A stretch of DNA of 56,640 bases from a bacterium (GCA_035308905.1 DATGFS010000008.1:1-56640); one strand, 5' to 3'. Shown: positions 22,363 through 43,150, counted from the first letter of the stretch. Notes: generated by a model not told the origin, from the sequence alone. Made by a program: numbers and translations.

Positions 22363-22470
22363 CAGCCGCCTCCCGACCGAGCGCTCGTTCGAATGCCTTG
22401 GTCCCACGGTATCGCGGTGGGGGCGCGGGAACAATGACGCGGCCGGCCTATTTCCCTGAGGCAGATGCTC

Positions 22471-27024: not shown

Positions 27025-27025
27025 G

Positions 27026-27772: not shown

Positions 27773-27786
27773 CGTCGCTCCCCCTT

Positions 27787-28575
27787 CTATCGCCCGGCGA
27801 AATGCGGCTCGCGTTTTTCCACGAACGCCTGAATGCCCTCACGGCGGTCCCGGCTGCCGCGCAGCACCGCGTGCGCCGTGCGTTCGAACGCGAGTCCGGC
27901 CTCGAGGCTGACGTCGTGGCACACGTGCACCGCCGTCTTGATGGCGGCGATCGACAGCGGCGCCCGCGACGCAATGGTGCGCGCCAGCGCCCGGGCGCCT
28001 TCCAGCAGCCCGTCGCGCGGGACGAGCCGGTTGACGAGGCCGATGCGGTAGGCCTCGGCGGCGTCGATGTGCTCGCCCGTGAACATCAGTTCTTTGGCCC
28101 GGGCCGCGCCGATCGCGCGCGTCAGCCGCTGGGTGCCGCCGGCGCCGGGCATGCTGCCGACTTTGGCCTCCGGGAACCCGAACCGGGCCCCCTCCGCCGC
28201 CACCCGCAGGTCGCACGCCAACGCGAGCTCCAATCCGCCCCCCAGTACGTAGCCATGGAGGGCGGCGATCACCGGCAGCGGGAGCGCCTCGATCTGGCCG
28301 AACACCCGTCGCACACCTTCGGCGAGCAGATCGCGGCCGGCGCCGTCGTGCTGGTATTCCTGCGACCGCGCCTTCAGGTCGGCGCCGACGCAGAACGCCT
28401 TCTCACCCGCGGCGGCGAGGATCAGCGCCCGCACCTCGCCGCCGGTCGCAACGTCTGCCAGCACCTCACCGATCCGATCCAGCATCGCGGCCGTCAACGC
28501 GTTCAGCGCTTCGGGCCGGTTGAGCGTCAACACGCCGATCGTCTCCTGCCGGTCAAACAGCACGGCTTCGCCCAC
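27787..28575 (-). CDS. Enoyl-CoA hydratase/isomerase
   Basis: A 262-residue crotonase-fold enzyme read from a GTG with GGAGGAGGGAG upstream. Both catalytic glutamates of true hydratases are present: Glu116 ([11 protein letters not shown]) and Glu136 ([12 protein letters not shown]). The oxyanion-hole segments are KAFCVGADL and GYVLGGG. It ends in the usual [15 protein letters not shown]. It probably hydrates a 2-enoyl-CoA produced in side-chain or ring-fragment oxidation. It overlaps the CoA-transferase gene by 23 nt. It is distinct from the ring-hydrolase-like and dienoyl-hydratase-like crotonases in this region. Confidence 0.88.
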
Positions 28576-29818
28576 GTGTCTCCCTCCTCCGGCGCGGAGG
28601 TTCCGCGCCCTGACCGCGCACCGGGGCGGCGCGCCCGGGCACGACGCCCGCGGCCGCGGCCGCGGCGATCTCTCGAACCGAAAACCCTGCCTCCAGGAGC
28701 ACCTCCACGGAGTGCTCGCCCGGGAGCGGCGCCGGCCGCGTGACGGCCGTCGGTGTCTCGCTGAGACGCAGCGGGCTGCCGATCACGGCCGTCCGTCCGA
28801 GCCGCGGGTGTTCGAACGACACCACCATATTGTTGTGGCGCACCTGCGGGTGGGCGACCACTTCCGGATAGGTGGCGATAGAGCCGCAGATGATGTCGGC
28901 GGCGTCCAGCGTGGATACCCACTCCGCCGAGCTCCGGGTCCGGAAGATCGGGATCAGCGCCTCACGCAGCGCGGCACGGTGGCGCACGCGCGCTTCGTTG
29001 GAGGCGAATCGGGCGTCCGCGGCGAGGTCCCGGCGGCCGAGCACCTCGCACAACGCGGCCCATCGTTCCGGGGTGTACGCGGCCACCATGATGAAGCCGT
29101 CGCGCGTCGGAAAGGCTTCGTTCGGCGCGGCGTACGCCGCGCCGCTGCCGGTGCGATCGGGCGGCTTCCCCGAGGCGAGGTACATCGCCAGCGGCACGGT
29201 CTGAAACGCGAGCAGCGCGTCGAGCAGCGCCACGTCCACCCGCTGCCCGCGCCCGGTGCGCTCGCGGGCGAACAGGGCGGCGAGCACGCCCTGCGCGGCG
29301 AGAAATCCCGCGGAGGTGTCCGCCGCCGGCACGCCGACCTTGACCGGGCCGCCGTCCGGTTCACCGGTCACGCTCATGAGGCCGCTCGCGCCCTGGACGA
29401 TGCCGTCGACGCCGGGCCGGTGGCGCCAGGGCCCGTCCTGACCGAACGCGGAGATCGCGCAGTACACGAGCCGGGGATGATCCGCGGCCAGCGTCTCATA
29501 GCCGAGGCCGAGCCTCACCATCACACCGGGCCGGAAGCTCTCGACGAGCACGTCGGTATGCGCCGCGAGACGCGCGACGATATCGCGGCCGCCCGGCCGT
29601 TTGAGGTCGACGACGACGCTGCGCTTGTTGCGGTTCATCCCGATGAACGCCGCCGCGACATCCCCGACGAACGGCGGACCCAGCGCCCGGCCCCACTCGC
29701 CGCCGGGCGGTTCGACCTTCACGACCCGCGCGCCGAGGTCGCCGAGGTGCATCGTACAGATCGGCCCTGCCGCGCCCTGCGAGAGATCGAGGACGCGGAT
29801 GCCGTCAAGCGCGCCCAT
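28553..29818 (-). CDS. CaiB/BaiF-family CoA-transferase (family III)
   Basis: A 421-residue family III CoA-transferase. The N-terminus reads [30 protein letters not shown], with the catalytic Asp138 in [13 protein letters not shown]. The fold-typical [12 protein letters not shown] and LLDALLAFQ are present. The C-terminus has an extra basic, low-complexity tail (about 25 residues rich in Arg). It moves CoA from a donor such as succinyl-CoA to an organic acid without ATP. BbsEF of the benzylsuccinate pathway belongs to this family, but here a single subunit is encoded. It overlaps the TetR gene by 14 nt and the hydratase gene by 23 nt. Confidence 0.88.
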
Positions 29819-30482
29819 CCCGCCCCCCTCTCCCGCCCGCGAGCAGGCCGACCGCGTAGTCGCCGAACCGCTCGGCGATCTCTTCTGCGCGAAGCCGCCC
29901 CTCAGGCCGGTACCAGCGGACGACCCAGTTGACGATCCCCAGGACCGCGAATCCCGCCAGCCGCACGTCGGTCGGCGCGAACTCGCCCGCCGCGATGCCG
30001 TCCGCGATGATGCGGCGGTAGCATCCCTCGTAGCGATCGCGCGTGACCTGATGCGCGGCGCGGAATTCGGGCGCGAGCCAGCGTCCTTCCTCGAGAAAGC
30101 ACGCCACGTTGTCGTGGTCGCGCGCCAGCGTGAGAATGTGCAGCCGCACCGCCCGGCGGAGCCGTGCGGCGGCGGGTGACGGACTGGACGCGATGCGCTC
30201 GAGCGCCGGCAGGGAGTGCTCGAGCGCGTGCTGGAGGATCTCGAAGAGCAGCCGCTGCTTGCCGGTGATGTAGTGGTAGAGCGATCCCTTCTTGAGACCC
30301 ACCGCGTCCGCGATGCTTTGAACCGTCGTGCGCTCGAAGCCCTGACGGCGGAACAGAGCCGCGGCCGCCTTGAGGATCGACGCGCGCATGCCCTCGGGAC
30401 GGCGCCCGTCGTGCGCGCCCGCGGCGTGCGCCGCGTCCAGCTCCGCCAGCGTGGCCGCCCCGCGGCGCACGGCCGCACTCAT
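29805..30482 (-). CDS. TetR-family transcriptional regulator
   Basis: A 225-residue TetR protein. The helix-turn-helix (RASILKAAAALFRRQGFERTT, then AVGLKKGSLYHYITGK) starts around residue 33, preceded by an Ala/Arg-rich extension. The ligand domain is helical, with C-terminal similarity to acyl-CoA-responsive repressors. The start at 30482 overlaps the upstream oxidoreductase stop (ATGA), so it is expressed within the operon it probably controls. A TetR-type palindrome at 40106-40119 next to the supraoperon promoter is a candidate target. Confidence 0.86.
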   Translation of the reverse strand: MSAAVRRGAATLAELDAAHAAGAHDGRRPEGMRASILKAAAALFRRQGFERTTVQSIADAVGLKKGSLYHYITGKQRLLFEILQHALEHSLPALERIASSPSPAAARLRRAVRLHILTLARDHDNVACFLEEGRWLAPEFRAAHQVTRDRYEGCYRRIIADGIAAGEFAPTDVRLAGFAVLGIVNWVVRWYRPEGRLRAEEIAERFGDYAVGLLAGGRGGRDGRA

Positions 30483-31045
30483 GACGCGGCCGCGCCATCC
30501 CGGCGCCGCGCCGCGGCGAGTTTGCGCCCCGCGTCGAGCGCCGCGAGGTTGGCGGTCCGGGAGGCCTCCGGCACCCGGCGCGCCGCCGCGTCCGCGAGGA
30601 GCCCGGCCGGCACGACCCCGGTCAACTCGCACAGGAGGCCCAGCATCACCATGTTGGCGCCGCGCGTGGATCCTCCGATCGCCCGCGCCGTCTCGAGGAT
30701 CGGCAGCGCGTAGGGAGCGGCCGCCTCGCGCGCCTCGCCCTCCGCGCCCGCGACACATCCCGCGTCCACGATCGCCACGCCTTCCGGCGCAAGCGCGTGC
30801 CGCGACCGTTCCCACGCTTCCCGTGTGAGCACCGCCAGCACGTCGAGCCGCCGGGGAACCGGGAAGGCCACGCGCTCATCGCTGATGATCAGGTCGGACC
30901 GGCTCGCGCCACCCCGCGACTCCGGTCCGTGCGCCTGCGTGCAGACGACGCGGCGGCCCGCGGCGACCGCGGCCTCGGCCAGGATCAACCCGGCGAGGGC
31001 AATCCCATGGCCACCCGCGCCGCCGAGGCGGATCGCGAGCCTCAT
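30479..31045 (-). CDS. 2-oxoacid:ferredoxin oxidoreductase, gamma subunit (KorC/PorG-like)
   Basis: A 188-residue gamma-domain protein: LGGAGGHGIALAGLILAEAA binds CoA-side elements of the complex, followed by THGPESRGGASRSDLIIS-type sequence (here AHGPESRGGASRSDLII). The small size and order alpha-beta-gamma fit a KorABC-type enzyme. It overlaps the beta subunit stop (ATGA). With the ferredoxin domain encoded on the IorB-like protein it would form a complete four-domain complex oxidising a 2-oxoacid to acyl-CoA and reducing ferredoxin, the electron source benzoyl-CoA reductase requires. Confidence 0.87.
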   Translation of the reverse strand: MRLAIRLGGAGGHGIALAGLILAEAAVAAGRRVVCTQAHGPESRGGASRSDLIISDERVAFPVPRRLDVLAVLTREAWERSRHALAPEGVAIVDAGCVAGAEGEAREAAAPYALPILETARAIGGSTRGANMVMLGLLCELTGVVPAGLLADAAARRVPEASRTANLAALDAGRKLAAARRRDGAAAS

Positions 31046-31881
31046 CGGCTCTTCCCTCCGGCGGCGAGCGCGCGGACGCGCGCGCAGAATTCGGGCCGCT
31101 CGATCTCGACCAGCACGCCGGTATCGAGGGGGACCGCGGCCGGGGCCGCGTCGCTCTCGTGCAGGAGCGTGGACGCGCCGGACGCGAGCGGAGCATCGAT
31201 CGCCGCGGCCGCGCGCTTCTGGCCGTAGAGCATCGCGGTGGGGCTGCCGAGCCCGTTGTACCGGCCGTAGAACTCCGGGCAGTCGCTGATCACCTCGATG
31301 AACGCGAAACCCGGGTGGCGCAGCCCGCGGAGGAACAGGTCTTCCAGCACCGCCGGCTCGTACGCGAGCCCCCGGCCCACGAACGTCGCGCCGGCGGCGG
31401 CGATCAGGCGGCACGCGTCGAACGGCGCCTCGACGTTGCCGTACGGCGACGTGGTCGTGGTCGCGCCGCCCGGCGTCGTCGGCGCCAGCTGCCCGCCGGT
31501 CATCCCGTACACCTCGTTGTTGAAGAGGACGCAGGTCAGATCGATGTTCCGGCGCGCGGCGTGGATGAGGTGGTTGCCGCCGATCGCGAGCCCGTCGCCG
31601 TCGCCGGTGAGGACGATCACGTGAAGATCGGGGCGCGCCAGTTTCAGGCCCGTGGCAAAGGCCGGCGCGCGGCCGTGGGTCGTGTGCAGGGTGCAGAAAT
31701 CCAGGCTGCCCACGAGGCGGCTGCTGCATCCGATGCCGGCCACGACCGCGACCGAATCCTGCGCCACGTCGAGGCGGTCGATCGCGCGGAGCAGCGCCCC
31801 GGCCACGATCCCGTGGCTGCAGCCGGGACAGAGAATGTGCGGCATCAGCGCCGGACGCAGGAAGCGGCGGATGTCGCCCAT
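31042..31881 (-). CDS. 2-oxoacid:ferredoxin oxidoreductase, beta subunit (KorB-like)
   Basis: A 279-residue thiamine-diphosphate-binding subunit. CPGCSHGIVAGALLRAID carries one Cys pair, with a further Cys in GIGCSSRL for the [4Fe-4S] cluster near the cofactor. GDGDGLAIGGNHLIHAARRNID with NNEVYGMTGGQ is the Mg-ThDP motif. The N-terminus (RRFLRPALMPHILCPGC) is of the KorB type that acts on 2-oxoglutarate or related 2-oxoacids. The ATG shares a base with the alpha stop (TGATG). Confidence 0.9.
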   Translation of the reverse strand: MGDIRRFLRPALMPHILCPGCSHGIVAGALLRAIDRLDVAQDSVAVVAGIGCSSRLVGSLDFCTLHTTHGRAPAFATGLKLARPDLHVIVLTGDGDGLAIGGNHLIHAARRNIDLTCVLFNNEVYGMTGGQLAPTTPGGATTTTSPYGNVEAPFDACRLIAAAGATFVGRGLAYEPAVLEDLFLRGLRHPGFAFIEVISDCPEFYGRYNGLGSPTAMLYGQKRAAAAIDAPLASGASTLLHESDAAPAAVPLDTGVLVEIERPEFCARVRALAAGGKSR

Positions 31882-33032
31882 CACACGCGCGCCCCGGCCG
31901 GACACAACGCTTCGACGCAGGCCAGGATCTGCTCCGGCTCGATCAGCTCGCCGTCGGCGCGGTGGCACGGCACCACCGGGACCCGGCCGCCGGCGGCCCG
32001 CTCCACCTCCCGCGTGATCTGGCCGAGATTCATCTCGGCCACCACGAGCGCCTTGACGGACGCCGCGGTGCGCCGCACGCTCTCGTCGGGAAACGGCCAC
32101 AGCACGATCGGGCGCAGCAACCCCGCGCGGATGCCGCGCCGCCGCGCCTCGCCGACGGCCTCCTCCGCCGCGCGGGCGGCGCTGCCGCAGGCGACGATCG
32201 CCACCTCGGCGTCGTCGAGCTGCAGGGTGCGGACCGGCGCGACCACGCTCTGGTATGATGCGATCTTGTCGAGCCGGCGGCGCTGGTGCGCCGCGGCGGT
32301 GCGGGGATCCTGCGTGGGATAGCCGCGATCGTCGTGCGCAAGACCGGTGACGTGGAACCGGTAGCCGCTCCCGAAGTCCGCGATCGGCGCGATGCCGTCC
32401 GCGTCCGCCTCGTACGGCCGGTATCGCGCCGGCGGCACCGCCGGACGGCGGCGGCCCGGCACGCCGCCGTCCGGCACCGCGGGCAGCACCGCCTCCTCGC
32501 GCATGTGCGCGAGCATCTCGTCGTAGAGCACGATCACCGGCGTGCGGAACCGCTCCGCGAGCGCAAAGGCCGCGACGGTCAGCTCGTACACCTCGGCCAC
32601 CGAGCCCGGCGTCAGGACGAGGCTCGGCACGTCGCCGTGGGTGCCCCAGCGGACCTGCATCATGTCGCCCTGCGACGGCGACGTCGGGAGGCCGGTGCTC
32701 GGCCCGCCGCGCATGACGTTCACGATCACGCACGGCACCTCGGCCATCGCGGCGAAGCCGATGTGCTCCTGCATGAGCGAGAATCCCGGCCCGCTTGTCG
32801 CGGTCATGGCCCGCAGTCCGCCGAGGGACGCGCCGATCACGGCGGCGAGCGACGCGATCTCGTCTTCCATCTGCACGAACACACCGCCGGCGGCGGGAAG
32901 CCGCCGGGCCATCCCTTCGGCGATCTCCGACGACGGCGTGATCGGATACCCGGCGTAGAAGCGGCAGCCGGCCGCGATCGCCCCGGCCGCGCACGCCGCG
33001 TTGCCCTGCAGGAGCTGCGGAGTCTGGTTCAC
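31881..33032 (-). CDS. 2-oxoacid:ferredoxin oxidoreductase, alpha subunit (KorA-like)
   Basis: A 383-residue alpha subunit read from the GTG at 33032, which overlaps the upstream stop (GTGA). Typical motifs are GNAACAAGAIAAGCRFYAGYPITPSSE for the pyrimidine domain, EDEIASLAAVIGASLGG with the catalytic Glu, TATSGPGFSLMQEHIG, and MRGGPSTGLPTSPSQGD. The C-terminal transketolase-like domain is complete. The substrate could be 2-oxoglutarate or an aryl-2-oxoacid. In Thauera, KorAB regenerates ferredoxin for benzoyl-CoA reductase, which is the parallel I draw here. Confidence 0.9.
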   Translation of the reverse strand: MNQTPQLLQGNAACAAGAIAAGCRFYAGYPITPSSEIAEGMARRLPAAGGVFVQMEDEIASLAAVIGASLGGLRAMTATSGPGFSLMQEHIGFAAMAEVPCVIVNVMRGGPSTGLPTSPSQGDMMQVRWGTHGDVPSLVLTPGSVAEVYELTVAAFALAERFRTPVIVLYDEMLAHMREEAVLPAVPDGGVPGRRRPAVPPARYRPYEADADGIAPIADFGSGYRFHVTGLAHDDRGYPTQDPRTAAAHQRRRLDKIASYQSVVAPVRTLQLDDAEVAIVACGSAARAAEEAVGEARRRGIRAGLLRPIVLWPFPDESVRRTAASVKALVVAEMNLGQITREVERAAGGRVPVVPCHRADGELIEPEQILACVEALCPAGARV

Positions 33033-33901
33033 GGCGTCCCTCCCGCGGAGGCCGCGGCCGGGCGGCGGCGCACAGTGACCGCGAAGTCGGGACAGAGATA
33101 CTCGCACAGCCGGCACCCGGTGCAGGCGGCGGGGTCGGCAACCTCGGCGATCGCGCGGGCGTTCAGCCGGAGGCAGTGCTCGGGACACACCCGCACGCAG
33201 ATGTCGCACCCCTTGCACCACGCGGCGGCGATCTCGACCTCCGCGGCGGGCGACCACGACGTTGACGCGGCCGGCAACGATGACATCGAAGCCGGTGCGG
33301 CCGGCCGCGCCGGCGCGAGCGCGAGACCCTCGCGGAACGCACGCACGTTCATCTCCGCCGTCCGCGCCGGCACGTGGCGAACGATCGTCTCCTCCCACGC
33401 ATCGCGCGGGAGCTCGAGATGGACGGCGAGCACGCCGAGCAGCACCGTGTTCGTCAGGCTGGCGGAGCCCGCGCCGCGGGCCACGGCTAGGGCATCGACC
33501 GTGTGCACGGGTCCGCGGTGATCCGCGAGGACCGCGCGGTCGAACGCGGGGTAGGCGCGCGCCCAGCGGCGGTGGTCGAGGTGGGCCGCGGGGGGGACGA
33601 TCTGCGCCGTACCGGAGATGAACACGCCGTCGGGGCGCAGATAGGACCGCCACCGGAGCCCTTCCGCCCACTCGAGCGCCACCAGCGCGTCGGCTTCGCC
33701 GACGCCGATGAGCGGGCTGTGCACCGCCGCGCCGTAGCGGACGTGACTGAACACGATCCCGCCCCGCTTGGACATGCCGTGGACCTCGCTCTTCTTCACG
33801 TCGAAGCCCGCGGCGAGGGCCACATCGGCCAGGATGTTGCCGGCGAGCACGACCCCCTGACCGCCGACGCCGACGATGAGGACGCTGCGTGTGCTAGGCA
33901 T
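33029..33901 (-). CDS. Indolepyruvate oxidoreductase beta domain fused to 2x[4Fe-4S] ferredoxin
   Basis: A 290-residue fusion. Residues 1-~195 are an IorB-like gamma domain (VLIVGVGGQGVVLAGNILADVA, SEVHGMSKRGGIVFSHVRYG). A ~30-residue Ala/Pro linker follows. Residues ~228-290 form a bacterial ferredoxin domain with CKGCDICVRVCPEHC and CTGCRLCEYLCP. IorB proteins are normally separate, and such ferredoxin domains are normally the KorD/PorD subunit of the downstream type of complex. The gene lies exactly between iorA and korABC, so the fusion may serve both oxidoreductases. It overlaps iorA by 8 nt and the alpha subunit by GTGA. Confidence 0.88.
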   Translation of the reverse strand: MPSTRSVLIVGVGGQGVVLAGNILADVALAAGFDVKKSEVHGMSKRGGIVFSHVRYGAAVHSPLIGVGEADALVALEWAEGLRWRSYLRPDGVFISGTAQIVPPAAHLDHRRWARAYPAFDRAVLADHRGPVHTVDALAVARGAGSASLTNTVLLGVLAVHLELPRDAWEETIVRHVPARTAEMNVRAFREGLALAPARPAAPASMSSLPAASTSWSPAAEVEIAAAWCKGCDICVRVCPEHCLRLNARAIAEVADPAACTGCRLCEYLCPDFAVTVRRRPAAASAGGTP

Positions 33902-35738
33902 CGGGGGACGCTCCGTCGCGGCCGCGTGGGGCCGGTTCGCGCGGACTCATCACGATGGCGCCGGTGGGACACAGCTGCGGGCAGATCGCGCATCCGGAAC
34001 ACAACGCCGGATCGATCGAGACCTTGAATCGCCCCTCGTAGGACTCATCGGTCCAGAGGAGCGCCGGGCACCCCATCGCCATGCACGCCTGGCAGGCGTT
34101 GCAGGCCTCCCCGGCCACCGTGAACGGCGGCCGGCGGATCTTCACGGGCGCTTCGACACACGGACGGTTGGTGATGACAACCGACACCCCGGGATGCGCG
34201 ACGGCCGCCTCGAGCGCGCGATGGGTGGCGCCGATATCGTACGGGTCCACCACCCGGATCCACTGCACGCCCAAGGACCGGCACAGGGCCACCAGATCGG
34301 TGCGCGCCGCCGCGTCGCCCCGGATCGTCCGGCCGGTCGCCGGGTGCGGCTGCCCGCCCGTCATCGCGGTCGTGCCGTTGTCGAGGATCAGGACGGTGAT
34401 CGGCGTGCGGTTGTAGACCGCGTCCAGCAGGGCGGACATGCCGGAATGCAGGAACGTCGAGTCGCCGAGCGCGGCCACCACCGGGCCGCCCCGCGCGCCG
34501 GACCGCGCAAGGCCGATCGCCATCCCGATGCTCGAGCCCATCGCGAGCGTCGTGTCGATCGCCGCGAGCGGCGGCAGCGCCGCCAGTGTGTAGCAGCCGA
34601 TGTCCCCTGCGACGACGGCCCCGAGTTGCCGCAGCGCCATGAACGGGACCGTGTGCGGACACCCGGGGCAGAGGACCGGAGGCCGGGGAGTGGCGCGGAC
34701 CACCGGCACGGGAGACGGTGCGGCCGCGTCCAGCACCCCCGCGCGCGCGAAGCCTTCGCGAACCAGGTCGGGCGTCAGCTCGCCGGTCCGCGGGAAATAT
34801 GCCTTGCCCTCCACCCGCAGCCCGGCCGCCCGCAGGGCGTCTTCGACGATCGGCTCGAGTTCCTCGACGACGAAGAGCCGGTCGACCGCGGCGGCAAAAT
34901 CCCGAATGCGCCGGAGCGGAAGCGGAAACGAAAAGCCGAGCCGCAGCACGCTCGCCTCTGGCAGCGCGTCGCGCACGTACTGCGCGGCGATGCCGCCCGT
35001 GACGACGCCGACGCGGGGATCGCGCAGCTCGACGGCGTTGAGGGGCGAGATATTCGCCTCCTCCTCAAGCCGGGCCAGCCGCTCGAGCAGGATGGGATGG
35101 CGCGCCCGCGCGTGCGCCGGGAGCAGGACGTACTTGGCCGGGTCCCGGCGGAAGCCGGGCCTGGCCGGCGTCCGCCGCCCGCCGATCTCGACGACGCCGC
35201 TCCCGTGGCTGATGCGGGTGGTCGTCCGCAGCATGACCGGAGTGTCGTAGGCTTCGCTGAGCTCGAACGCCGCGGCGGTGAAGGCCTTGGCGTCCGCGGA
35301 ATCCGCCGGCTCCAGGAGCGGAATGCCCGCGAACCGGGCGTAGAGACGGTTGTCCTGCTCGTTCTGAGAACTGTGCATGCCGGGATCGTCGGCGGAGACG
35401 ACGACCAGACCGGCCCCCACGCCGGTGTAGGCCGCGGCGAGCAGCGTGTCCGCGGCCACGTTGAGGCCGACGTGCTTCATCGCGGCCAGCGCGCGGGCTC
35501 CGCCGAGGGACGCGCCGAGCGCCACGTCGAGGGCGACCTTCTCGTTGGACGACCACTCGACGTAGACCCCGTCGCACCGCGCCAGCGCTTCCAGGATCTC
35601 GGTGCTGGGCGTACCGGGATACCCGGCCGCCACCGTCACGCCGGCCTCGTAGGCGCCCTGCGCCACGGCTTGGTTGCCGAGGAGCACACGCCGGGCCGGC
35701 GCGGTCCCGGGATGCGCGTCGCGCACCGCCGCGTCCAT
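33894..35738 (-). CDS. iorA: Indolepyruvate:ferredoxin oxidoreductase, alpha subunit
   Basis: A 614-residue fused alpha/beta subunit. The N-terminal pyrimidine domain has GNQAVAQGAYEAGVTVAAGYPGTPSTE; the ThDP domain has LCPGCPHTVPF, GDIGCYTL, MGSSIGMAIGLA, GDSTFLHSG and DNGTTAMTGGQPHP. The C-terminus carries two ferredoxin motifs (CNACQACMAMGCP and CSGCAICPQLCP). IorAB oxidises arylpyruvates from aromatic amino acids to arylacetyl-CoA while reducing ferredoxin. The start at 35738 shares one base with the preceding stop. Together with the adjacent PaaK-like ligase it suggests arylacetyl-CoA as an operon intermediate. Confidence 0.9.
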   Translation of the reverse strand: MDAAVRDAHPGTAPARRVLLGNQAVAQGAYEAGVTVAAGYPGTPSTEILEALARCDGVYVEWSSNEKVALDVALGASLGGARALAAMKHVGLNVAADTLLAAAYTGVGAGLVVVSADDPGMHSSQNEQDNRLYARFAGIPLLEPADSADAKAFTAAAFELSEAYDTPVMLRTTTRISHGSGVVEIGGRRTPARPGFRRDPAKYVLLPAHARARHPILLERLARLEEEANISPLNAVELRDPRVGVVTGGIAAQYVRDALPEASVLRLGFSFPLPLRRIRDFAAAVDRLFVVEELEPIVEDALRAAGLRVEGKAYFPRTGELTPDLVREGFARAGVLDAAAPSPVPVVRATPRPPVLCPGCPHTVPFMALRQLGAVVAGDIGCYTLAALPPLAAIDTTLAMGSSIGMAIGLARSGARGGPVVAALGDSTFLHSGMSALLDAVYNRTPITVLILDNGTTAMTGGQPHPATGRTIRGDAAARTDLVALCRSLGVQWIRVVDPYDIGATHRALEAAVAHPGVSVVITNRPCVEAPVKIRRPPFTVAGEACNACQACMAMGCPALLWTDESYEGRFKVSIDPALCSGCAICPQLCPTGAIVMSPREPAPRGRDGASPDA

Positions 35739-36970
35739 CACGACGCGCGCGACGCCACGAGCGCGAAGATCTCTTCGTCGCGCAGGACGTGCGTGCTCGC
35801 CTTGGCGCAGTCGAGCACGCGGCGCACCAGCTCCGGGTGCGGCGCGATGCGGTGCTGCTCGAACCAGTGCATCACGTTGGCCTGGCCGCTCATGGGCCCG
35901 ACGGTGAGCCGCTGCTCGCGGCCGATGTCCTCGGCCGGCACGCTGCTGTACACCCGGTCGGCGAGCCAGCGGTCGTCCCGGTGCAGGGCCTTGAGGATCG
36001 CCGCCGCGTGCACCCCGCTGCTCGTCTCGAACGCGTCCTTGCCGACGATGGGACAGTTGGGAAGCACGGGCAGCGCCACGGCGTCGGCGACGGCCCGGCA
36101 GTACTCGGGGAGCGCATGGAGATCGACCTCGGCCCAGCCCATCCAGTCGAGCAGCCGGAGATTCACGAGCAGCTGCTCCATGCTGGTGTTGCCGACGCGC
36201 TCGCCGATCCCCAACGCGCAGGCGTGCAGCCGGTCCGCCCCGGCCTCGGCCGCGACGAGGGCGTTGATCACGTCGAGCCCGCGGTCGCGGTGGCCGTGCC
36301 AATCGATGGCGACCTCGTCGCCGACCACGCGGCGCACGAACCGGACGAGCCGCCAGGCCCCCCACGGCATGGCGTGTCCGACCGTGTCGGCCACGCAGAT
36401 CCGCGCGGCCCCGGCCGCCACCGCGGCCGTATAGAGACGCCGCAGGTCGTCGGGGCGGGCGCGGGTGGTGTCCTCGGTGACGAACATCACGTCGAGCCCC
36501 AGCCGCCGCGCGTGGGAGACCGCGGTCTCGGCCGTGCGGACGAGAAACTCGATGTCCCAGCCCTCGACGTACTGGCGAATCGGACTGCTCCCGAGGAAGA
36601 TCGCGGCTTCGATCGCGACCCCGCTCCGCTGCTGGGCCTCCGCGATCGGGACGATGTCGGCCTCGGTGGTCCGGCCGGCGCAGTTCGCGCGGAGCCGCAG
36701 CCGGTGCGCGCGGATTTCGCGCGCCAGGGCGACGACGTCTTCCAGCGCCTGCCGGCCGGCGCCCGGGTACCCGAGATTCACGCTGGAGATCCCGAGATCG
36801 TCCATGAGATGCAGGATCCGGCGCTTCTGCTCCGGCGACGGCTGCCGGACCGAGGGGCTCTGCAGCCCGTCGCGCAGCGTCTCGTCGTTGATCTCGAGGA
36901 GGCCCCGCGGCCGGCGCGGACGCTGGCCCACGGTGTTCCAGTCGTAGATCAGGTCCACCGATTTGATCAT
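35738..36970 (-). CDS. LeuA-like (isopropylmalate/citramalate-synthase-type) DRE-TIM metallolyase
   Basis: A 410-residue DRE-TIM enzyme. The signature NDETLRDGLQSPSV gives the Arg/Asp catalytic pair, DWHGHRDRG provides the two metal His, and GIGERVGNTSMEQL the metal Asn. It lacks the C-terminal LeuA regulatory domain, so it should not be feedback-inhibited by leucine. Such enzymes condense acetyl-CoA with a 2-oxoacid. Coupled to LeuC/LeuD-like genes upstream it could run a leucine-like chain elongation of an unusual 2-oxoacid; a lyase in the reverse direction is also possible. It overlaps the PaaK-like gene by ATGA. Confidence 0.83.
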   Translation of the reverse strand: MIKSVDLIYDWNTVGQRPRRPRGLLEINDETLRDGLQSPSVRQPSPEQKRRILHLMDDLGISSVNLGYPGAGRQALEDVVALAREIRAHRLRLRANCAGRTTEADIVPIAEAQQRSGVAIEAAIFLGSSPIRQYVEGWDIEFLVRTAETAVSHARRLGLDVMFVTEDTTRARPDDLRRLYTAAVAAGAARICVADTVGHAMPWGAWRLVRFVRRVVGDEVAIDWHGHRDRGLDVINALVAAEAGADRLHACALGIGERVGNTSMEQLLVNLRLLDWMGWAEVDLHALPEYCRAVADAVALPVLPNCPIVGKDAFETSSGVHAAAILKALHRDDRWLADRVYSSVPAEDIGREQRLTVGPMSGQANVMHWFEQHRIAPHPELVRRVLDCAKASTHVLRDEEIFALVASRAS

Positions 36971-38259
36971 GGCCCTCCCCTCCCGGAACGCCGGTCGATG
37001 ACCCGGAGCGCCTTGCCCTCGCTTCGCGGAATCTCACCCGGCGGCAGCACGGCGACGACGGCGGAGAGTCCGAGGCTCGCCCGCAGGGCGCTTTCCGCGC
37101 GCCGCGCGAGGGCCTGACTCTCTCCGGGCGCCGCGCAGCGGCTTTCCACCTGGACCCGCAGCACGTCGAGCGCCCGCGGCCGGTCGATGACGATCTGATA
37201 GTGCGGCGTGAGATCCGGAATGCGCAGCAGCACCGATTCGATGTCCGACGGGAACAGGTTGACTCCGCGGACGATCAACATGTCGTCGATCCGGCCGCCG
37301 ACGCGGGCCATGCGGACGAGCGTGCGGCCGCACGCGCAGGGCCGCGGATCGAGCGAGGTGACGTCGCCGGTCCGGTACCGAAGCAGCGGCGCCGCCTCCT
37401 TGGTCAGCGTGGTGAGCACCAGCTCTCCGGACATGCCCGGCGGCAGCGGCGCGCCGGTGGCCGGATCGATCACCTCGGGGAAGAAGTGGTCCTCCTGCAC
37501 GTGCAGCCCGTTCCTCGCCTCGCACTCCGCCGCGACTCCCGGCCCGATCACCTCGCTGAGTCCGTAGATGTCGGACGCGCGGATCCCGAGGCGGCGCTCG
37601 ATCTCCGCGCGCGCCGCTTCGGACCAGGGCTCCGCGCCGAACGCGCCGCACCGCAGCGCGGGGGGCGGCCCGCCCGACGCGTCGATCGCCTCGGCGATGT
37701 GCAGGGCGTACGACGGCGTGCAGCACAGCACCGTGACCCTGAACTCGCGCAGGAGGCGCACCTGACGCGCGGTGTTGCCGGACGAAGCCGGCAGCACCGC
37801 CGCCCCGAGGTGCTGCGCGCCGTAGTGAAAGCCGAGCCCGCCGGTAAACAATCCGTAGCCGAACGCGTTCTGGATGACGTCGCCGCGCCCCACGCCGCCG
37901 CCGGCGAGGCAGCGCGCCATCGTCTCGCCCCACGTCTCCCAATCGCGGCGCGTGTACGCGGCCGCCGTCGGCGTCCCCGTCGTGCCCGACGAGCAATGGA
38001 ACTCCGCGACCTGCTCGCGCGGGCACGCGAGCAGGCCGAACGGATACGAGCGCCGGAGATCGTCCTTCGTGGTGAACGGGATGCGGGTGAGGTCGTCGAC
38101 GCCGCGGATCTCCGCCGCCCGGACGCCCGCCGCCTCGAGGCGCGCGCGGTAGAACGGCACCGCCTCGGCGACGCGCGCGACGGTCGCGCGCAGCCGCTCG
38201 CCCTGCCCCACGCGGAGCGCCGCGCGATCGACGGTCTCCGCGCCGGGGTTCCAGATCAT
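36967..38259 (-). CDS. PaaK-like phenylacetate/aryl-CoA ligase
   Basis: A 430-residue adenylate-forming ligase of the PaaK family. The ATP loop is HCSSGTTGTPTAAAY, the A5-type motif is DIYGLSEVIGPGVAAEC, and LRYRTGDVTSLD and GRIDDMLIVRGVNLFPSDIE are the A7/A8 regions. The C-terminal domain has the terminal Lys (PRSEGKALRV). The enzyme activates phenylacetate, benzoate-like or other aryl acids to CoA thioesters with ATP giving AMP and PPi. It overlaps both neighbours by ATGA. The four-Cys zinc motif seen in many PaaK proteins is partly visible (PCACGRT). Confidence 0.88.
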   Translation of the reverse strand: MIWNPGAETVDRAALRVGQGERLRATVARVAEAVPFYRARLEAAGVRAAEIRGVDDLTRIPFTTKDDLRRSYPFGLLACPREQVAEFHCSSGTTGTPTAAAYTRRDWETWGETMARCLAGGGVGRGDVIQNAFGYGLFTGGLGFHYGAQHLGAAVLPASSGNTARQVRLLREFRVTVLCCTPSYALHIAEAIDASGGPPPALRCGAFGAEPWSEAARAEIERRLGIRASDIYGLSEVIGPGVAAECEARNGLHVQEDHFFPEVIDPATGAPLPPGMSGELVLTTLTKEAAPLLRYRTGDVTSLDPRPCACGRTLVRMARVGGRIDDMLIVRGVNLFPSDIESVLLRIPDLTPHYQIVIDRPRALDVLRVQVESRCAAPGESQALARRAESALRASLGLSAVVAVLPPGEIPRSEGKALRVIDRRSGRGGP

Positions 38260-38783
38260 GCCCGGTCCCGGGCGCCGCCCGCGCGCCGGCGGAGCAGCGG
38301 GCCGATCCCTCCGGCCCGCAGGACGTCCAGCATCGGCGGTGCGAGCGGCCGGCCGCGCACGACGGCACCGGTGGCGAGGTTGCGGACGATTCCCGCCTCG
38401 AGATCGATCTCGAGGCCGTCGCCGTCGGCGACGGCTGCCGCGGCATCCGCGCACGGCAGCGCCGGCAGCCCGATGGCGACGGCGTTCCGTAGAAAGAGGC
38501 GGGCGAACGACGCTGCGACGACGCACCCGACCCCGAGCGCCTTGAGCCCTTCCGGCGCCGTCTCACGGCTGCTGCCGCAGCCGAAGTTCCGTCCGGCCAC
38601 GACCACGTCCCCGGGGCGCACCTCCGCGGCGAAGCGCGGATTGACCGCTTCCAGGGTGTGCGCCGCGCGGACGGCGGGCGGGGCGACCGCGTAGGCGCCG
38701 GGAGAGAGCGCGTCGGTGCTGATATCGTCGCCGAAGCGCCACGCCCGGCCGGCAATGCGCAGGCCCGGCGCGCCGGTGTTCAT
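38256..38783 (-). CDS. LeuD-like small subunit of isopropylmalate/homoaconitate-type dehydratase
   Basis: A 175-residue swivel-domain subunit. It begins RFGDDISTDALSPG, with VVVAGRNFGCGSSRETAPEGLKALG as the phosphate-loop signature and ASFARLFLRNAVAIGLP as the substrate-recognition loop; here IGLP follows the inserted Asn-Ala. It overlaps the large subunit stop (ATGA) and the ligase start. With the large subunit it performs hydration/dehydration isomerisation of a malate-type acid. It clusters with catabolic genes, so biosynthetic leucine production is not the obvious role. Confidence 0.88.
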   Translation of the reverse strand: MNTGAPGLRIAGRAWRFGDDISTDALSPGAYAVAPPAVRAAHTLEAVNPRFAAEVRPGDVVVAGRNFGCGSSRETAPEGLKALGVGCVVAASFARLFLRNAVAIGLPALPCADAAAAVADGDGLEIDLEAGIVRNLATGAVVRGRPLAPPMLDVLRAGGIGPLLRRRAGGARDRA

Positions 38784-40057
38784 CGCCGCTCCGGCAAGGG
38801 GGAGAGCATGCGGCGGGGATCCGTGATCCGGCCGCGGACGGCGCTCGCGGCCACCGTCGCGGGCGACGCCAGGAAGATCTCCGCCTGCGGACTGCCCATC
38901 CGCCCGGAGAAGTTGCGGTTGTGCGTCCCGATGCAGCGCTCGCCGGCCGCCAGCACCCCGCCGTGCCCGCCGAAGCACGGCCCGCAGCCGGCCGGCATCA
39001 GCAGCGCGCCGGCGTCGACGAGGGTCTCGAGCAGCCCCTCCGACATCGCGTCTCGCTCGATCTGCGAGGACGCGGGGGCCACCAAGAGGCGCGTGCGCGG
39101 ATGGACGCGGTGGCCCGCGAGGATCCGGGCCGCGACACGCAGATCCTCGAGGCGGCCGTTCGTGCACGAACCGATGAACGCTTGATGGATCGTCACGCCT
39201 TCGACCGCCTGGACGGGCTTCACGTGGTCGACGGCGTGCGGCAGTGCGACCCGCGGGCCCAGAGGCTCCAGGTCGAGGCGCACCGCGCGCGCGTACCGCG
39301 CGTCCGCATCGGGGCCGAACGCGTCCACGCCGATGTCGCGCCGGCGAAAGTGCCGGACGGTCGCCCCATCCGCCGGAAACAGGCCGAACTTCGCGCCGAG
39401 CTCGACGGCCATGTTGGCGATCGTCAGACGGCCGGCGATGTCGACGTCGCCGGCCGCCGGCCCGCCGAATTCCAGCGCCTGGTACTGGGCGCCGTCGGTG
39501 CCGATCTGCCCGGCGAGCTCCAACACCACGTCCTTCCACATCACGCCCGCGGCCAGCCGGCCGGCCAGGTCGACGCGAATCGTCGACGGAACCTGAAACC
39601 ACAACTCCCCGGTGGCCAGGACGTACGCCATCTCGGAGGTCCCGATGCCGGTGCCACCGATCCCGAGGGCGCCGGCGGTCGTCGTATGCGAGTCGGTGCC
39701 GAGAAGCAGCTGCCCGGGCTGCGCCAGGCCCCCCTCGGCGACGAGCTGATGGCAGATGCCGTTCCCGGCGTCGAAGAAATGCAGAATCTCAAACTCGCGG
39801 ACGAACTCGCGGATGCGGCGGTGCACCTCGGCCGCAGCCACCGACGGCGCGGGCACCAGGTGATCCAGCACGACAATCACGCGGGCGCTGTCCCACACCG
39901 ACGAAAAACCCGACTGCCGGAGCATCTCGAAGACCGGAACCGCAAAGATGTCGTGGAGGAGGGCCATATCGACACGGCCCGTGACGAACTGGCCGGGGAC
40001 CACCGCGGTCTGGCCGGAGGCGCGGGCGAGGATTTTCTCCGCCATGGTCATTCCCAT
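38780..40057 (-). CDS. LeuC-like large subunit of isopropylmalate/homoaconitate-type dehydratase
   Basis: A 425-residue aconitase-family large subunit. I use the ATG at 40057, behind a G7 run; in-frame ATGs at 40051 and 40045 are alternatives, and a longer upstream start is rejected. The [4Fe-4S] ligands are the Cys of FIGSCTNGR and the two of AGCGPCFGG. GTDSHTTTAGALGIGGTGIG is the substrate-domain signature. It is the first gene of the 24-kb minus-strand supraoperon. A candidate promoter and palindromic operator lie 50-100 bp upstream. No isopropylmalate dehydrogenase gene is in the window. Confidence 0.88.
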   Translation of the reverse strand: MGMTMAEKILARASGQTAVVPGQFVTGRVDMALLHDIFAVPVFEMLRQSGFSSVWDSARVIVVLDHLVPAPSVAAAEVHRRIREFVREFEILHFFDAGNGICHQLVAEGGLAQPGQLLLGTDSHTTTAGALGIGGTGIGTSEMAYVLATGELWFQVPSTIRVDLAGRLAAGVMWKDVVLELAGQIGTDGAQYQALEFGGPAAGDVDIAGRLTIANMAVELGAKFGLFPADGATVRHFRRRDIGVDAFGPDADARYARAVRLDLEPLGPRVALPHAVDHVKPVQAVEGVTIHQAFIGSCTNGRLEDLRVAARILAGHRVHPRTRLLVAPASSQIERDAMSEGLLETLVDAGALLMPAGCGPCFGGHGGVLAAGERCIGTHNRNFSGRMGSPQAEIFLASPATVAASAVRGRITDPRRMLSPLPERR

Positions 40058-40105
40058 CGGGGCCCCCCCGATCGCGTTGGGTGCACGAATCACGCGGGAC
40101 CCGAC

Positions 40106-40119
40106 CAACCGGTCGGTTG
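40106..40119. promoter_or_regulatory. TetR-type palindromic operator at the supraoperon promoter
   Basis: CAACCG-GT-CGGTTG is a perfect 6+2+6 inverted repeat 49 bp upstream of the LeuC-like start. It begins at about the predicted transcription start of the promoter at 40126-40154, a classic repressor position. Palindromes of ACCGACCGGTCGGT style are common targets of acyl-CoA-responsive TetR repressors. The TetR protein encoded at 29805-30482 inside the supraoperon is the natural candidate. Confidence 0.55.
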
Positions 40120-40125
40120 ATCCTC

Positions 40126-40154
40126 ACTATGGAAGCCGCGGCCGGGAAAGACAA
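40126..40154 (-). promoter_or_regulatory. Putative supraoperon promoter
   Basis: On the minus strand a -35 TTGTCT (40149-40154), a 17-bp spacer and a -10 CATAGT (40126-40131) face the LeuC-like gene. Directly upstream (40155-40192) is the element shared with the promoter at 43083-43111: TCCGGCTCA, then TTG, ATGA and GCAAA in register. The 40058-40232 gap holds no gene. Confidence 0.55.
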
Positions 40155-40232
40155 TGAAGCGTCCGGCTCAATTGAGATGATGCAAACGCAGGGGTTCGGT
40201 GGCGGGGCGGCCGCGAGGAGGGGCGGCGGTAT

Positions 40233-41414
40233 TCAGCCGGTGATGTGCATCCGGTATCCGCCGCGGAATTCGCGGTGCTCCGCGAAGCGCGTGATGCTGA
40301 ACGCCTCGAGGTCGACGTGCGAGCAGCGGCCGGTCGTGACGTATTCCGCGATGGCTTCGCCCGTGGCCGGGCAGAGCTTGAACGAGTTGCCGCTGCCGCC
40401 CACGACCTGCAGGTAGCCGCGGACCCCGGGCACCGGCCCGAAGATGAGGTGGAAGTCCGGGCTGATGCCGTCCGGTCCGGACCACGAGCGGACGCGGGAC
40501 ATCCGCTCCGCCCACGGGCAGCGGCGGACGAGATTATCGTGGATCTCCGCCTCGAACATCATGGACGGCCGAGGCGGGTCGGCGTCCAGATCGGGCGCCT
40601 CTGTCTCCAACTCGGTGTTCTCGGCCGAACCCCCGCCGGCGAGCATGAGGCCCATCGCGTCCGGCCGGCAATATGTCATGGTGGTGACGTCGATCCACGT
40701 GGGACTGGTCCGCGTCCACCCGCCGTACTGCGGGTTGAACGCGACCATCTGGAGCAGGCCCGGCCTGACGGGCAGTGTCACTCCGACCATCCGGGCGATC
40801 CGCGGCGCCCACGCGCCCGCGCAATTGACTACGAGCGGCGTGCGAATCGAGCCGTGGTCGGTTGCGACTGCGGAGACCGCGCCGTTGCTGATGATGTCGA
40901 GCACCGCGACCCCCGAATAGATCGCCGCGCCGAGTTCCCGCGCCTTGTTCGCAAACGCCGTGGCGGTCGCGTAGGGATCGGCGTACCCGGCCTCCCCCTC
41001 GTAGGCGGCGAGCGCCAGGCCGTCGCGGGCGAACCCGGGGATCCAGCGGTGGACCTCGTCGGGACCGATCAGCTCGGCGTCCACGCCGGCGTGCCGCTGC
41101 ATCTCCACGACCCGCCGCATGTTCGCCGCGTCGGCGGCGCCGACGACCGCGACGAACCCGTTGCACACGTAGTCGACCGGCGATCCCAGTTCATCCGCGA
41201 GCCGCGGCCACAGCTGGGCCGCCCGGTGCGCCAGCCGGACCATCGACGGGTTGGAGTAGTGGCAGCGAATGATGCCCCCCGACGCCCCGGATGACCCCGC
41301 CCCGATGGTGCGCCGTTCCAACAGCGCGACCTGCCTGCCGGCCTTGGCAAGGTGATACGCGACGCTCGCGCCGTGGACGCCTCCCCCGATAACGACGGCC
41401 TCGGCCTCCTGCAT
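40233..41414 (-). CDS. FAD-dependent oxidoreductase (DAO/sarcosine-oxidase-like)
   Basis: A 393-residue flavoprotein. The dinucleotide motif is VVIGGGVHGASVAYHLAKAG. The flavin-contact IGAGSSGASGGIIRCHYSNPSMV and the C-terminal VVGGSGNSFKLCPATGE fit the D-amino-acid/sarcosine-oxidase (DAO) family. It likely oxidises a C-N bond of an amine or amino acid, yielding an imine or 2-oxoacid; oxidation of an aromatic amino acid to feed IorA is an untested possibility. The ATG at 41414 follows the cold-shock gene stop by 5 nt; a GTG three bases earlier is an alternative. Confidence 0.84.
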   Translation of the reverse strand: MQEAEAVVIGGGVHGASVAYHLAKAGRQVALLERRTIGAGSSGASGGIIRCHYSNPSMVRLAHRAAQLWPRLADELGSPVDYVCNGFVAVVGAADAANMRRVVEMQRHAGVDAELIGPDEVHRWIPGFARDGLALAAYEGEAGYADPYATATAFANKARELGAAIYSGVAVLDIISNGAVSAVATDHGSIRTPLVVNCAGAWAPRIARMVGVTLPVRPGLLQMVAFNPQYGGWTRTSPTWIDVTTMTYCRPDAMGLMLAGGGSAENTELETEAPDLDADPPRPSMMFEAEIHDNLVRRCPWAERMSRVRSWSGPDGISPDFHLIFGPVPGVRGYLQVVGGSGNSFKLCPATGEAIAEYVTTGRCSHVDLEAFSITRFAEHREFRGGYRMHITG

Positions 41415-41419
41415 CACGC

Positions 41420-41641
41420 TTAGGCCACCCGCCGCACGTCGGACGCCTGCAAACCTTCCAGGCCCTCGAAGATGGTGAACTCCACCGTTTCGCCTTCACG
41501 GAGGAACGACGGACCGGGGGCTGCGACCGCCGTGTAGTGCACGAAAATCTTGCTGCCGTCCGGACCGCCGATAAACCCGAACCCGCCGTTGACGTTGAAC
41601 CATTTGACCCGGCCCTGCACCCGCTCGCCCGACACCGCCAT
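41420..41641 (-). CDS. Cold-shock-domain protein (CspA-like)
   Basis: A 73-residue single cold-shock domain with GGGGAGGAGC before the ATG. RNP1 is WFNVNGGFGFIGG; RNP2 is KIFVHYTAV, where Tyr replaces the common Phe. It begins GRVKWF as in CspA. It binds single-stranded RNA or DNA and may act as an RNA chaperone. Its place between the dienoyl-hydratase-like gene and the flavoprotein gene in an aromatic operon is unusual and may reflect mRNA handling for this operon. Confidence 0.92.
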   Translation of the reverse strand: MAVSGERVQGRVKWFNVNGGFGFIGGPDGSKIFVHYTAVAAPGPSFLREGETVEFTIFEGLEGLQASDVRRVA

Positions 41642-41691
41642 GCTCCTCCCCCCATCCGGCCCGCGCATCTGTCGCATCGGCGCGGCCGCCG

Positions 41692-42468
41692 CTACGCGTG
41701 CTTCCAAACCGGCGTGCGCTTCCCGAGAAACGCCGCGATGCCTTCGGCCGCGTCCGCGGTCGCGACCAGCTCCGACGTGTACAGCTTCGTCGCGTCCCGC
41801 AGCGCGCGCCGCAGGGCGTCGCGGCCGTCCGCGACCACCGCGCGCTTGGCGAGGCGCACCGCGGCCCCGCTGTGGGCCAGGAGCCTCGCTTCCAGCTCGC
41901 GGGTCGCTCGGTCCAGCTCCCCCGCCGGCACCACGCGCGCCACCAGTCCCATCGCGTGCGCCTCCGCCGCGGAGATCGGCGCGCCGGTCAGCACGAGCGC
42001 CAGCGCCCGCGCGTCGCCGACGAGGCGCGGCAGCAGCGCCGCGGCCACGGGCGGGAACGCGGCCAGCGTGATCTCCGGCAGACCGAACCGGACGCCGTCC
42101 GCCGCCACCACGAGATCGCACAACAGCGCAAGCTCCCACCCTCCCCCGAGCGCGGGACCCTGCACCGAGGCGATGACGGCCTGGGGCAGCGCCAGCATCT
42201 CCACGGCCAGCGCCTCGAACGCCTCGAGCATCGGGCGCGCGCGCTCGGGCGCGTGTGCCGCGACGTCCACGCCGGCGCAGAAGGCCCGCGTGCCGGTCGA
42301 CGTGATCGTGACGGCGGCGACCTCGGGGGTCCGGGCGAGCCGCGCGCAGGCGGACGTCAGGCCGAGCAGCATCGGCAGCGTGAGAATCCCGAGCGGAGGC
42401 CGGTCGATCACGATCCGGGCCGCCCGGCCGTCGATGTTCAGCGCGATGCGGCCGTCGGTCTCGTCCAT
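41692..42468 (-). CDS. dch: Crotonase similar to cyclohexa-1,5-dienecarbonyl-CoA hydratase
   Basis: A 258-residue crotonase-fold enzyme. From memory of the Thauera dienoyl-CoA hydratase, these blocks align: FCAGVDVAAHAPERA, MLALPQAVIASVQGPALGGGWELA, RFGLPEITLAAFPPVAAALLPRLVG, ISAAEAHAMGLV, and the C-terminal ELVATADAAEGIAAFLGKR with a Trp-containing end. Glu is present at both catalytic positions (GGGWELAL and GLPEITL). The reaction would be hydration of the diene made by benzoyl-CoA reductase to 6-hydroxycyclohex-1-ene-1-carbonyl-CoA. It overlaps the TetR gene by 31 nt. An ordinary enoyl-CoA hydratase remains the alternative. Confidence 0.68.
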   Translation of the reverse strand: MDETDGRIALNIDGRAARIVIDRPPLGILTLPMLLGLTSACARLARTPEVAAVTITSTGTRAFCAGVDVAAHAPERARPMLEAFEALAVEMLALPQAVIASVQGPALGGGWELALLCDLVVAADGVRFGLPEITLAAFPPVAAALLPRLVGDARALALVLTGAPISAAEAHAMGLVARVVPAGELDRATRELEARLLAHSGAAVRLAKRAVVADGRDALRRALRDATKLYTSELVATADAAEGIAAFLGKRTPVWKHA

Positions 42469-43046
42469 GGGGCGCGTGTCTCCGCGGAGGAGGCGTAGCC
42501 ATCGAGGAAGATCCGGGTCATGCCGTCGGCGAGCGTATCGGCGTTGCCGTCCGCTTCCGGCCGGTACCACATATGGATCCAGTTGAGCATCCCGAACAGC
42601 GCCATGGTCGCAAGGCGCGGCGGCACCGAAGCCACGGCCACCTCGGACACCACGTTGCGGCAGATCGTATAGTAGCGATGGCGCAGCGCGTAGATCTGCG
42701 CGGCCTGGGCGCCCTCGAGCGCATCGAGCTCGCGGGTCAACACCTTCATCTCGTTCATGTGCCGCAGGAAGTGCTCGAAGTGATTGCGGATCACCACGCG
42801 GACGCGGCCCCGGGGCTCCGAGGTCGCGGCCAGCTTCTCGGTCAGGGAGTCCAGGACCATCGTGAAGCTGCGCTCGCAGATGCGGTACAGCAGCTCGTCT
42901 TTGCCGCGCACGTAATAATACAGGCCGGCGACGCTGATGCCGGCGGCGCGGGCGACATCGCGGATCGTCGTCCGTTCGTACCCCTGCGACGCGAACAGCG
43001 ACGCGGCGGTCTCGAGGATCGTCTCTCGTCGGGCATCGTATGCCAT
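42438..43046 (-). CDS. TetR-family transcriptional regulator of the dch-like operon
   Basis: A 202-residue TetR protein. The helix-turn-helix reads ETILETAASLFASQGYERTTIRD, then AAGISVAGLYYYVRGKDELL. The ligand domain includes HFEHFLRHMNEMKVLTRELD and ends MALFGMLNWIHMWYRPE, as in fatty-acid/aryl-CoA-responsive regulators. The ATG at 43046 has CGAGG at proper spacing and lies ~30 nt after the predicted start site; a GTG at 43073 would leave almost no leader. It is first in an operon with the dch-like hydratase, the cold-shock protein and the flavoprotein and is probably autoregulatory. Confidence 0.87.
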   Translation of the reverse strand: MAYDARRETILETAASLFASQGYERTTIRDVARAAGISVAGLYYYVRGKDELLYRICERSFTMVLDSLTEKLAATSEPRGRVRVVIRNHFEHFLRHMNEMKVLTRELDALEGAQAAQIYALRHRYYTICRNVVSEVAVASVPPRLATMALFGMLNWIHMWYRPEADGNADTLADGMTRIFLDGYASSAETRAPWTRPTAASR

Positions 43047-43082
43047 CGCAGCCTCGTTCGAGCGCTCGATCACCTAGACACC

Positions 43083-43150
43083 AGCGTATCGGCCGCGGAG
43101 GCGGCCGCCAATGGAGAATCCGGCTCATTTGCATGAAGCAAATGCCGCAC
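43083..43150 (-). promoter_or_regulatory. Promoter and upstream inverted repeat of the TetR-dch operon
   Basis: Minus-strand -35 TTGGCG (43106-43111), 17-bp spacer and -10 TACGCT (43083-43088). Immediately upstream lies the perfect inverted repeat CATTTGC-ATGAA-GCAAATG (43126-43144), inside a ~38-bp block also found at the same distance from the supraoperon promoter at 40126-40154. The block shares CAATG, TCCGGCTCA, TTG, ATGA, GCAAA and GC in the same order, with one 1-nt indel. Confidence 0.6.

Follow-up and report, generated by a model that had tools for sequence, protein, structure and literature searches.

A conserved promoter element linked to a PAS-LuxR gene at benzoyl-CoA reductase-like and associated operons of an uncultured bacterial lineage

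Introduction

Two intergenic regions of a bacterial genome, one upstream of a homoaconitase-like gene (hacA) and the other upstream of a TetR-type regulator gene (tetR), share an element of ~38 bp, which raises the question of which protein might bind there and which operons it might join. Regulators of ATP-dependent benzoyl-CoA reduction have been described in only a few bacteria (BadM, BamVW, BgeR, BzdR and MbdR; PMC6678401, PMC4424350). The first-pass annotation of this DNA had proposed that the two copies are bound by one activator or repressor that links consecutive steps of an aromatic pathway, and had named TetR, FNR and XRE proteins as candidates. The stretch that we analyzed (hereafter, the window; 56,640 nucleotides) is contig C8 of the 4.0-Mb, 81-contig genome of an uncultured bacterium (G000; the other genomes are numbered likewise), and all of the genomes analyzed are MAGs.

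Results

The genes and sites considered are listed in Table 1. Because the bcrC product scored below the curated BcrC cut-off (TIGR02263, 307 bits versus 421), we refer to these genes as bcr-like. The label dch is likewise a family-level guess, since the TIGR03189 score lies below its cut-off; in G006 and G010, this candidate is located between tetR and bcrC. Both TetR proteins combine the helix-turn-helix domain with the same C-terminal domain, and the PAS-LuxR protein has the composition of a one-component regulator (PF00196, 60 bits; PF13426/PF00989).

Table 1. Positions of genes, element copies, core promoters and candidate operators in the window
Feature	Position	Strand	Basis
bcrC, benzoyl-CoA reductase subunit C-like, first in bcrCBAD-oah-SDR	21193–22365	–	TIGR02263, HGD-D
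TetR1 operator candidate GAACGAGCGCTCGGTC, bcr promoter	22375–22390	–	sequence
bcr core promoter: –35 TTGTTC, 17-nt spacer, –10 TACCGT	22406–22434	–	sequence
Element copy C, bcr promoter	22431–22467; dyad arms 22457–22463 / 22444–22450	–	model R1, E 7.5e-4
PAS-LuxR one-component regulator (PAS + GerE HTH), proposed activator	22498–23214	–	domains, linkage
TetR2 (TetR_C_24), proposed repressor at hac operator	29805–30479	–	PF00440 + PF17932
hacA, homoaconitase-like large subunit, heads long operon	38780–40054	–	TIGR01343, 518 bits, above cut-off
PfmR-type TetR operator candidate CAACCGACCGGTTGGTCGG, hac promoter	40101–40119	–	type kept in four families (f1, f2, f3, f6)
hac core promoter: –35 TTGTCT, 17-nt spacer, –10-like CATAGT (40126–40131)	40126–40154	–	spacing kept in G002
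Element copy A, hac promoter	40149–40188; dyad arms 40178–40184 / 40164–40170	–	alignment, model match
Enoyl-CoA hydratase family, possible dienoyl-CoA hydratase (dch)	41692–42465	–	family match
TetR1 (TetR_N + TetR_C_24)	42438–43046	–	domain match, PF00440 + PF17932
TetR1 operator candidate GATCGAGCGCTCGAAC, tetR promoter	43056–43071	–	conserved in four TetR1 genomes
tetR core promoter: –35 TTGGCG, 17-nt spacer, –10 TACGCT (43083–43088)	43083–43111	–	conserved in G002, G006, G010
Element copy B, tetR promoter	43107–43144; dyad arms 43134–43140 / 43121–43127	–	alignment, model match

We aligned the two intergenic regions and obtained a local score of 56, which was reached by none of 2000 dinucleotide-preserving shuffles of both regions (mean, 23.7; maximum, 42). 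As the first-pass annotation had stated, copies A and B differ by a single 1-nt indel and precede matching –35 hexamers at equal distance (TTGTCT, 40149–40154; TTGGCG, 43106–43111); the element ends in CATTG, and the TTG within it starts the hexamer. The pattern TGAGCCGGANNCTNCATTG, which was derived from these two copies, occurs without mismatch only there in the whole 4.0-Mb genome. The palindrome that had been taken as the core is indeed perfect in copy B (ATTTGCATGAAGCAAAT, 43127–43143, its sole exact match within the window), but its arms (ATTTGC-N5-GCAAAT) are lost in the hac and bcr copies, and we rejected it as the core. The spacing between the –35 and –10 hexamers, for which 16–18 nt was taken as the sigma-70 range, is 17 nt in all three promoters of the window and in nine of the ten promoters counted, including TTGTCC-17-TATGAT in G003. 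The hexamers are good matches in G003 and G041 and poor ones in G000, where a simple sigma-70 scan missed the hac and tetR promoters.

Only two copies had been reported, and a third, upstream of bcrC, had been missed. It was found with model A1/R1, which was trained on six tetR and hac sites and run on twelve genomes of the family; although blind to bcr sites, the model recovered the bcr promoters of G000 and of G002 (E 9.8e-5 in the latter). Both repeat the full layout of element, TTGTTC or TTGTCC, 17 nt, TACCGT and CGAGCGCTCG palindrome, and the bcr genes accordingly have a promoter of their own and do not merely continue the hac operon. Copy A, which had been said to control a supraoperon with benzoyl-CoA reductase, does lie upstream of the long hac operon; the bcr genes, ~18 kb downstream with their own element copy and promoter, are not driven by it directly. 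The same model also matched a site in G006 (E 0.005) before a truncated bcr fragment. This fragment (L085:9530-10064, contig C89) is a second bcr copy that has kept the promoter element and adjoins the PAS-LuxR gene; the intact operon of G006 is on C127, and the truncated copy reflects either decay or an assembly artefact.

In G006 and G010, tetR-dch-bcrCBAD-oah-SDR forms one run behind a single element copy; G000 and G002 have the run divided into tetR-dch and bcr parts, each with its own copy. Such a history would suit an origin of the promoter likeness in a recent duplication at the operon split, the element itself being without function. We consider this extremely unlikely, since the element and the –35/–10 hexamers are kept over five families whereas the flanking intergenic DNA has diverged, and since the hac copy has an operator type of its own.

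The element and the same promoter geometry recur in five families of the order. At tetR, the element is present in G002, G006 and G010, and that of G002 is identical at 21 of 21 bases (TTTGCTTCATGCAAATGAGCC); the hac promoter of G002 keeps the element, –35 hexamer, spacer and –10 hexamer. Over 20 sites, the near-invariant positions are CAT(T/C)TGCnTCA-N3/4-AAATGAGCC-N8-TCATTG, and the dyad common to the copies is TGCnTCA-N6/7-TGAnGC(A), with an often A-rich center. The 7-base arms TGCnTCA/TGAnGCA matched as inverted repeats at a mean of 4.45 of 7 positions, compared with 0.6 to 1.9 at shifted registers; because pairing arms across different sites also yielded 4.13, the dyad symmetry belongs chiefly to the consensus. 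The arms are perfect in G035, G036 and G016, and symmetry is weak in several copies. The hac element of G002 (L043, G002:C66:30082-30120) is a perfect inverted repeat, AATGAAGCG-GA-CGCTTCATT, which is imperfect in G000.

A further model (R3), trained on 15 sites and run on 18 genomes, gave no match of E < 0.01 outside bcr, hac and tetR promoters; its scores are circular for the sites on which it was trained, and the evidence free of this circularity is the R1 family run, a separate genome search and the own-family matrix scans. In G000, three sites were found, all within the window, and the random scatter that the first-pass annotation had named as a refutation was not seen in the genome-wide search. 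Weak matches at G010:C44 (the boundary of two unrelated genes), G010:C7 and G016:C50 were taken as chance. Two element-like repeats on G033 C86 (L103:6381-6415 and a near repeat ~110 nt on; E 0.0014 in the separate genome search), near which neither PAS-LuxR nor bcr genes were found, are possibly a repeat element.

In the window, the PAS-LuxR gene lies directly upstream of the bcr copy, and one copy of the element is found just 3' of the PAS-LuxR gene in nearly every element-bearing genome. bcrC was present in 13 of the 43 genomes of the order, each of which also has a PAS-LuxR homologue; among the remaining genomes, only G003 has a PAS-LuxR match of comparable strength. We scanned loci of other families with a matrix built from own-family sites only; the target intervals were chosen by context, and the choice of sites outside the own family was therefore partly context-guided. 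The first rank in the locus fell in the intergenic region from PAS-LuxR to bcrC or hacA in G036, G039, G040, G035 and G023, and just 3' of PAS-LuxR in G001, G041 and G003; the site downstream of PAS-LuxR came second in G016 and sixth in G012. Two exceptions were G006, in which the PAS-LuxR gene is ~0.8 kb from the nearest copy, on its 3' side, and G023, in which the distance is ~1.1 kb. In G041 and G012, bcrC has no recognizable element.

The operon behind the PAS-LuxR site is not always the same. In G041, an ABC transporter component of the branched-chain-amino-acid type lies downstream of it, and more element sites are found before hacA and at one other locus. In G003 (L086:8018-9365), the PAS-LuxR gene, element and promoter are followed by an operon that is terminal-oxidase-like, as judged from sequence reading and not from a family search; this genome is without bcr, TetR1 and TetR2, yet has the element. 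We read these cases as a linkage of regulator and site that outlasts changes of both the target operon and the repressor. Part of the linkage could nevertheless stem from a single gene order inherited from a shared ancestor.

Inherited gene order would be the whole explanation of the PAS-LuxR adjacency if the element were bound by an unlinked activator, whether of the LysR type, the FNR/CRP type (e.g. AcpR) or a BzdR-like XRE type. LysR sites carry a T-N11-A dyad, and the tetR copy has one; this symmetry is not kept in the hac and bcr copies, which disfavors the LysR reading. Benzoyl-CoA genes elsewhere are under the FNR-type AcpR and BzdR (PMC6678401), and BzdR sites contain TGCA repeats with an A-rich N6, but the TGCA half-sites of the element, where present, are 12–13 nt apart and do not form TGCA(N6)TGCA. 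Moreover, the site stays 3' of PAS-LuxR despite the changed downstream operons in G003 (terminal oxidase) and G041 (transporter). On balance, we regard an unlinked activator as unlikely.

Downstream of the element, the promoters carry palindromes of two types. The tetR and bcr promoters are the only places in the window with the core CGAGCGCTCG (at 22378 in the bcr promoter), and this type is found at tetR and at the own-family bcr promoters. Palindromes of the CGACCGGTCG type hold the same position at all hac promoters and at the bcr promoters of G035, G036, G039 and G040. The first type co-occurs with TetR1 and the second with TetR2, the exception being G036, which has only a 38% relative. 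At the hac promoter, AACCGACCGGTTGGTC (40103–40118) is one mismatch from the predicted PfmR operator TACCGACCGNTNGGTN; matches to this pattern with at most two mismatches numbered two in the window, which is not above chance, and the argument is thus carried by conservation. The best solved match of TetR2 is 3vpr (E 1e-33), a PfmR structure, and TetR2 may be an orthologue of PfmR. TetR1 probably acts at CGAGCGCTCG in the tetR and bcr promoters, and TetR2 at the PfmR-like ACCGACCGGTTGGT in the hac promoter, in both cases at about +1 to +20.

The element might itself be the operator of TetR1 (or TetR2), with the palindromes near +1 serving something else. Palindromes of its size are bound by TetR proteins, and within the own family, the strong bcr, tetR and hac copies coincide exactly with the presence of TetR1 in four genomes; apart from G000, these are G002, G006 and G010, all of this family, and TetR1 orthologues were found nowhere else. 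However, a good or recognizable element is present in nine genomes without TetR1 (G003, G012, G016, G023, G035, G036, G039, G040 and G041) and in at least G003, G006 and G010 without TetR2, and these element-positive genomes disfavor either TetR as the binder. In addition, a place upstream of the –35 hexamer fits an activator, and better TetR-type palindromes lie at +1 and covary with the type of TetR. We therefore consider this explanation improbable. Since the linkage of PAS-LuxR and element holds without both TetRs, even in the bcr-less G003, PAS-LuxR rather than TetR is the likeliest binder.

Discussion

The element is conserved phylogenetically, fixed in its promoter geometry, restricted to one regulon and linked to a PAS-LuxR gene. 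The notion of a common regulator for pathway steps is thus upheld by these computations, whereas the TetR, FNR and XRE candidates first named for it look wrong. The identity of the binder, its role as an activator and not a repressor, and the signals are what we infer from the sequences. It is probable, in our judgment, that the element is the site of a PAS-LuxR activator and that the TetR proteins act at the separate palindromes downstream.

Under this proposal, the imperfect inverted repeat, whose dyad center is ~19 nt before the –35 hexamer, near –55, would be the activator site. At a fixed distance after it comes the right half of the element, which extends as far as the –35 box (nCATTG) in the sigma-70 promoter. 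The PAS-LuxR protein would bind the element, contact RNA polymerase and turn on three transcripts, namely bcrCBAD-oah-SDR, tetR-dch-csp-DAO and the hac operon, and the TetR repressors would probably be released on build-up of aryl-CoA or acyl-CoA. In 14 PAS-LuxR homologues (window gene; L042, L046, L084-L087, L100-L107), the PAS domain has invariant cysteines, C-x12-C-x3-C, which are a possible redox or metal site, and the domain may report redox or oxygen state. A broader and tentative extension is that this protein is a lineage-wide redox or oxygen switch between aerobic respiration and anaerobic ring reduction through one promoter module, to which two paralogous TetRs might contribute control by substrate, both acting at one position of the module through exchanged operator centers (CGAGCGCTCG versus CGACCGGTCG).

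Control of benzoyl-CoA genes by an activator together with a repressor is already known, and the components appear to be new here. At the Azoarcus bzd promoter PN, the FNR-type activator AcpR and the repressor BzdR are involved (PMC6678401). In both PN and the window, a benzoyl-CoA reductase operon is read from a sigma-70 promoter, with an activator site on the –35 side and a repressor site covering –10/+1, the promoter and both sites being predicted in the window; the two differ in that PN has an FNR/CRP activator at –41.5 and BzdR with TGCA repeats, whereas the window has PAS-LuxR and TetR candidates with other motifs. MbdR, a TetR protein, represses the Azoarcus mbd genes and is induced by 3-methylbenzoyl-CoA (PMC4424350). 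As predicted for the TetRs of the window, it represses an anaerobic aryl-CoA pathway from an operator over the transcription start, but this operator is ATACN10GTAT, in contrast to CGAGCGCTCG or ACCGACCGGTTGGT, and sequence similarity to 4uds is weak. PfmR (TTHB023) of Thermus thermophilus, whose published predicted operator the hac candidate resembles, has been associated with genes of phenylacetate and fatty-acid metabolism (PMC7022988).

Streptomyces PAS-LuxR proteins of the PimM type recognize CTVGGGAWWTCCCBAG (PMC9774167). They resemble the window protein in being one-component regulators with PAS and LuxR-HTH domains and a palindromic site at the –35 side (predicted in the window), but they belong to another pathway and lineage, and the conserved cysteines of the PAS domain distinguish the window protein. 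Because the consensus here is TGCnTCA-N6/7-TGAnGC and the Streptomyces motif is absent, we did not file the protein in the PimM group. Among the 20 best matches of a literature search that covered few subscription papers, none was on PAS-LuxR control of benzoyl-CoA reductase.

A small regulon is thereby defined for this uncultured lineage, together with exact predicted sites for three regulators; it would tie the benzoyl-CoA genes and the hac/PaaK/thiolase operon into one program; the motif can be used to predict new members. The hac operon itself (window 25467–40054, minus strand) contains a pair of homocitrate-synthase-like and homoaconitase-like genes, PaaK, IorAB and KorABC, together with CaiB-hydratase-SDR-thiolase genes resembling those of benzylsuccinate beta-oxidation. 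Its products perhaps convert phenylpyruvate or phenylacetate to benzoyl-CoA. Within the own family, hacA was detected in G000 and G002 only, at the threshold used, and similar hac-HCS-Ior blocks are found in G002, G012, G016, G023 and G041.
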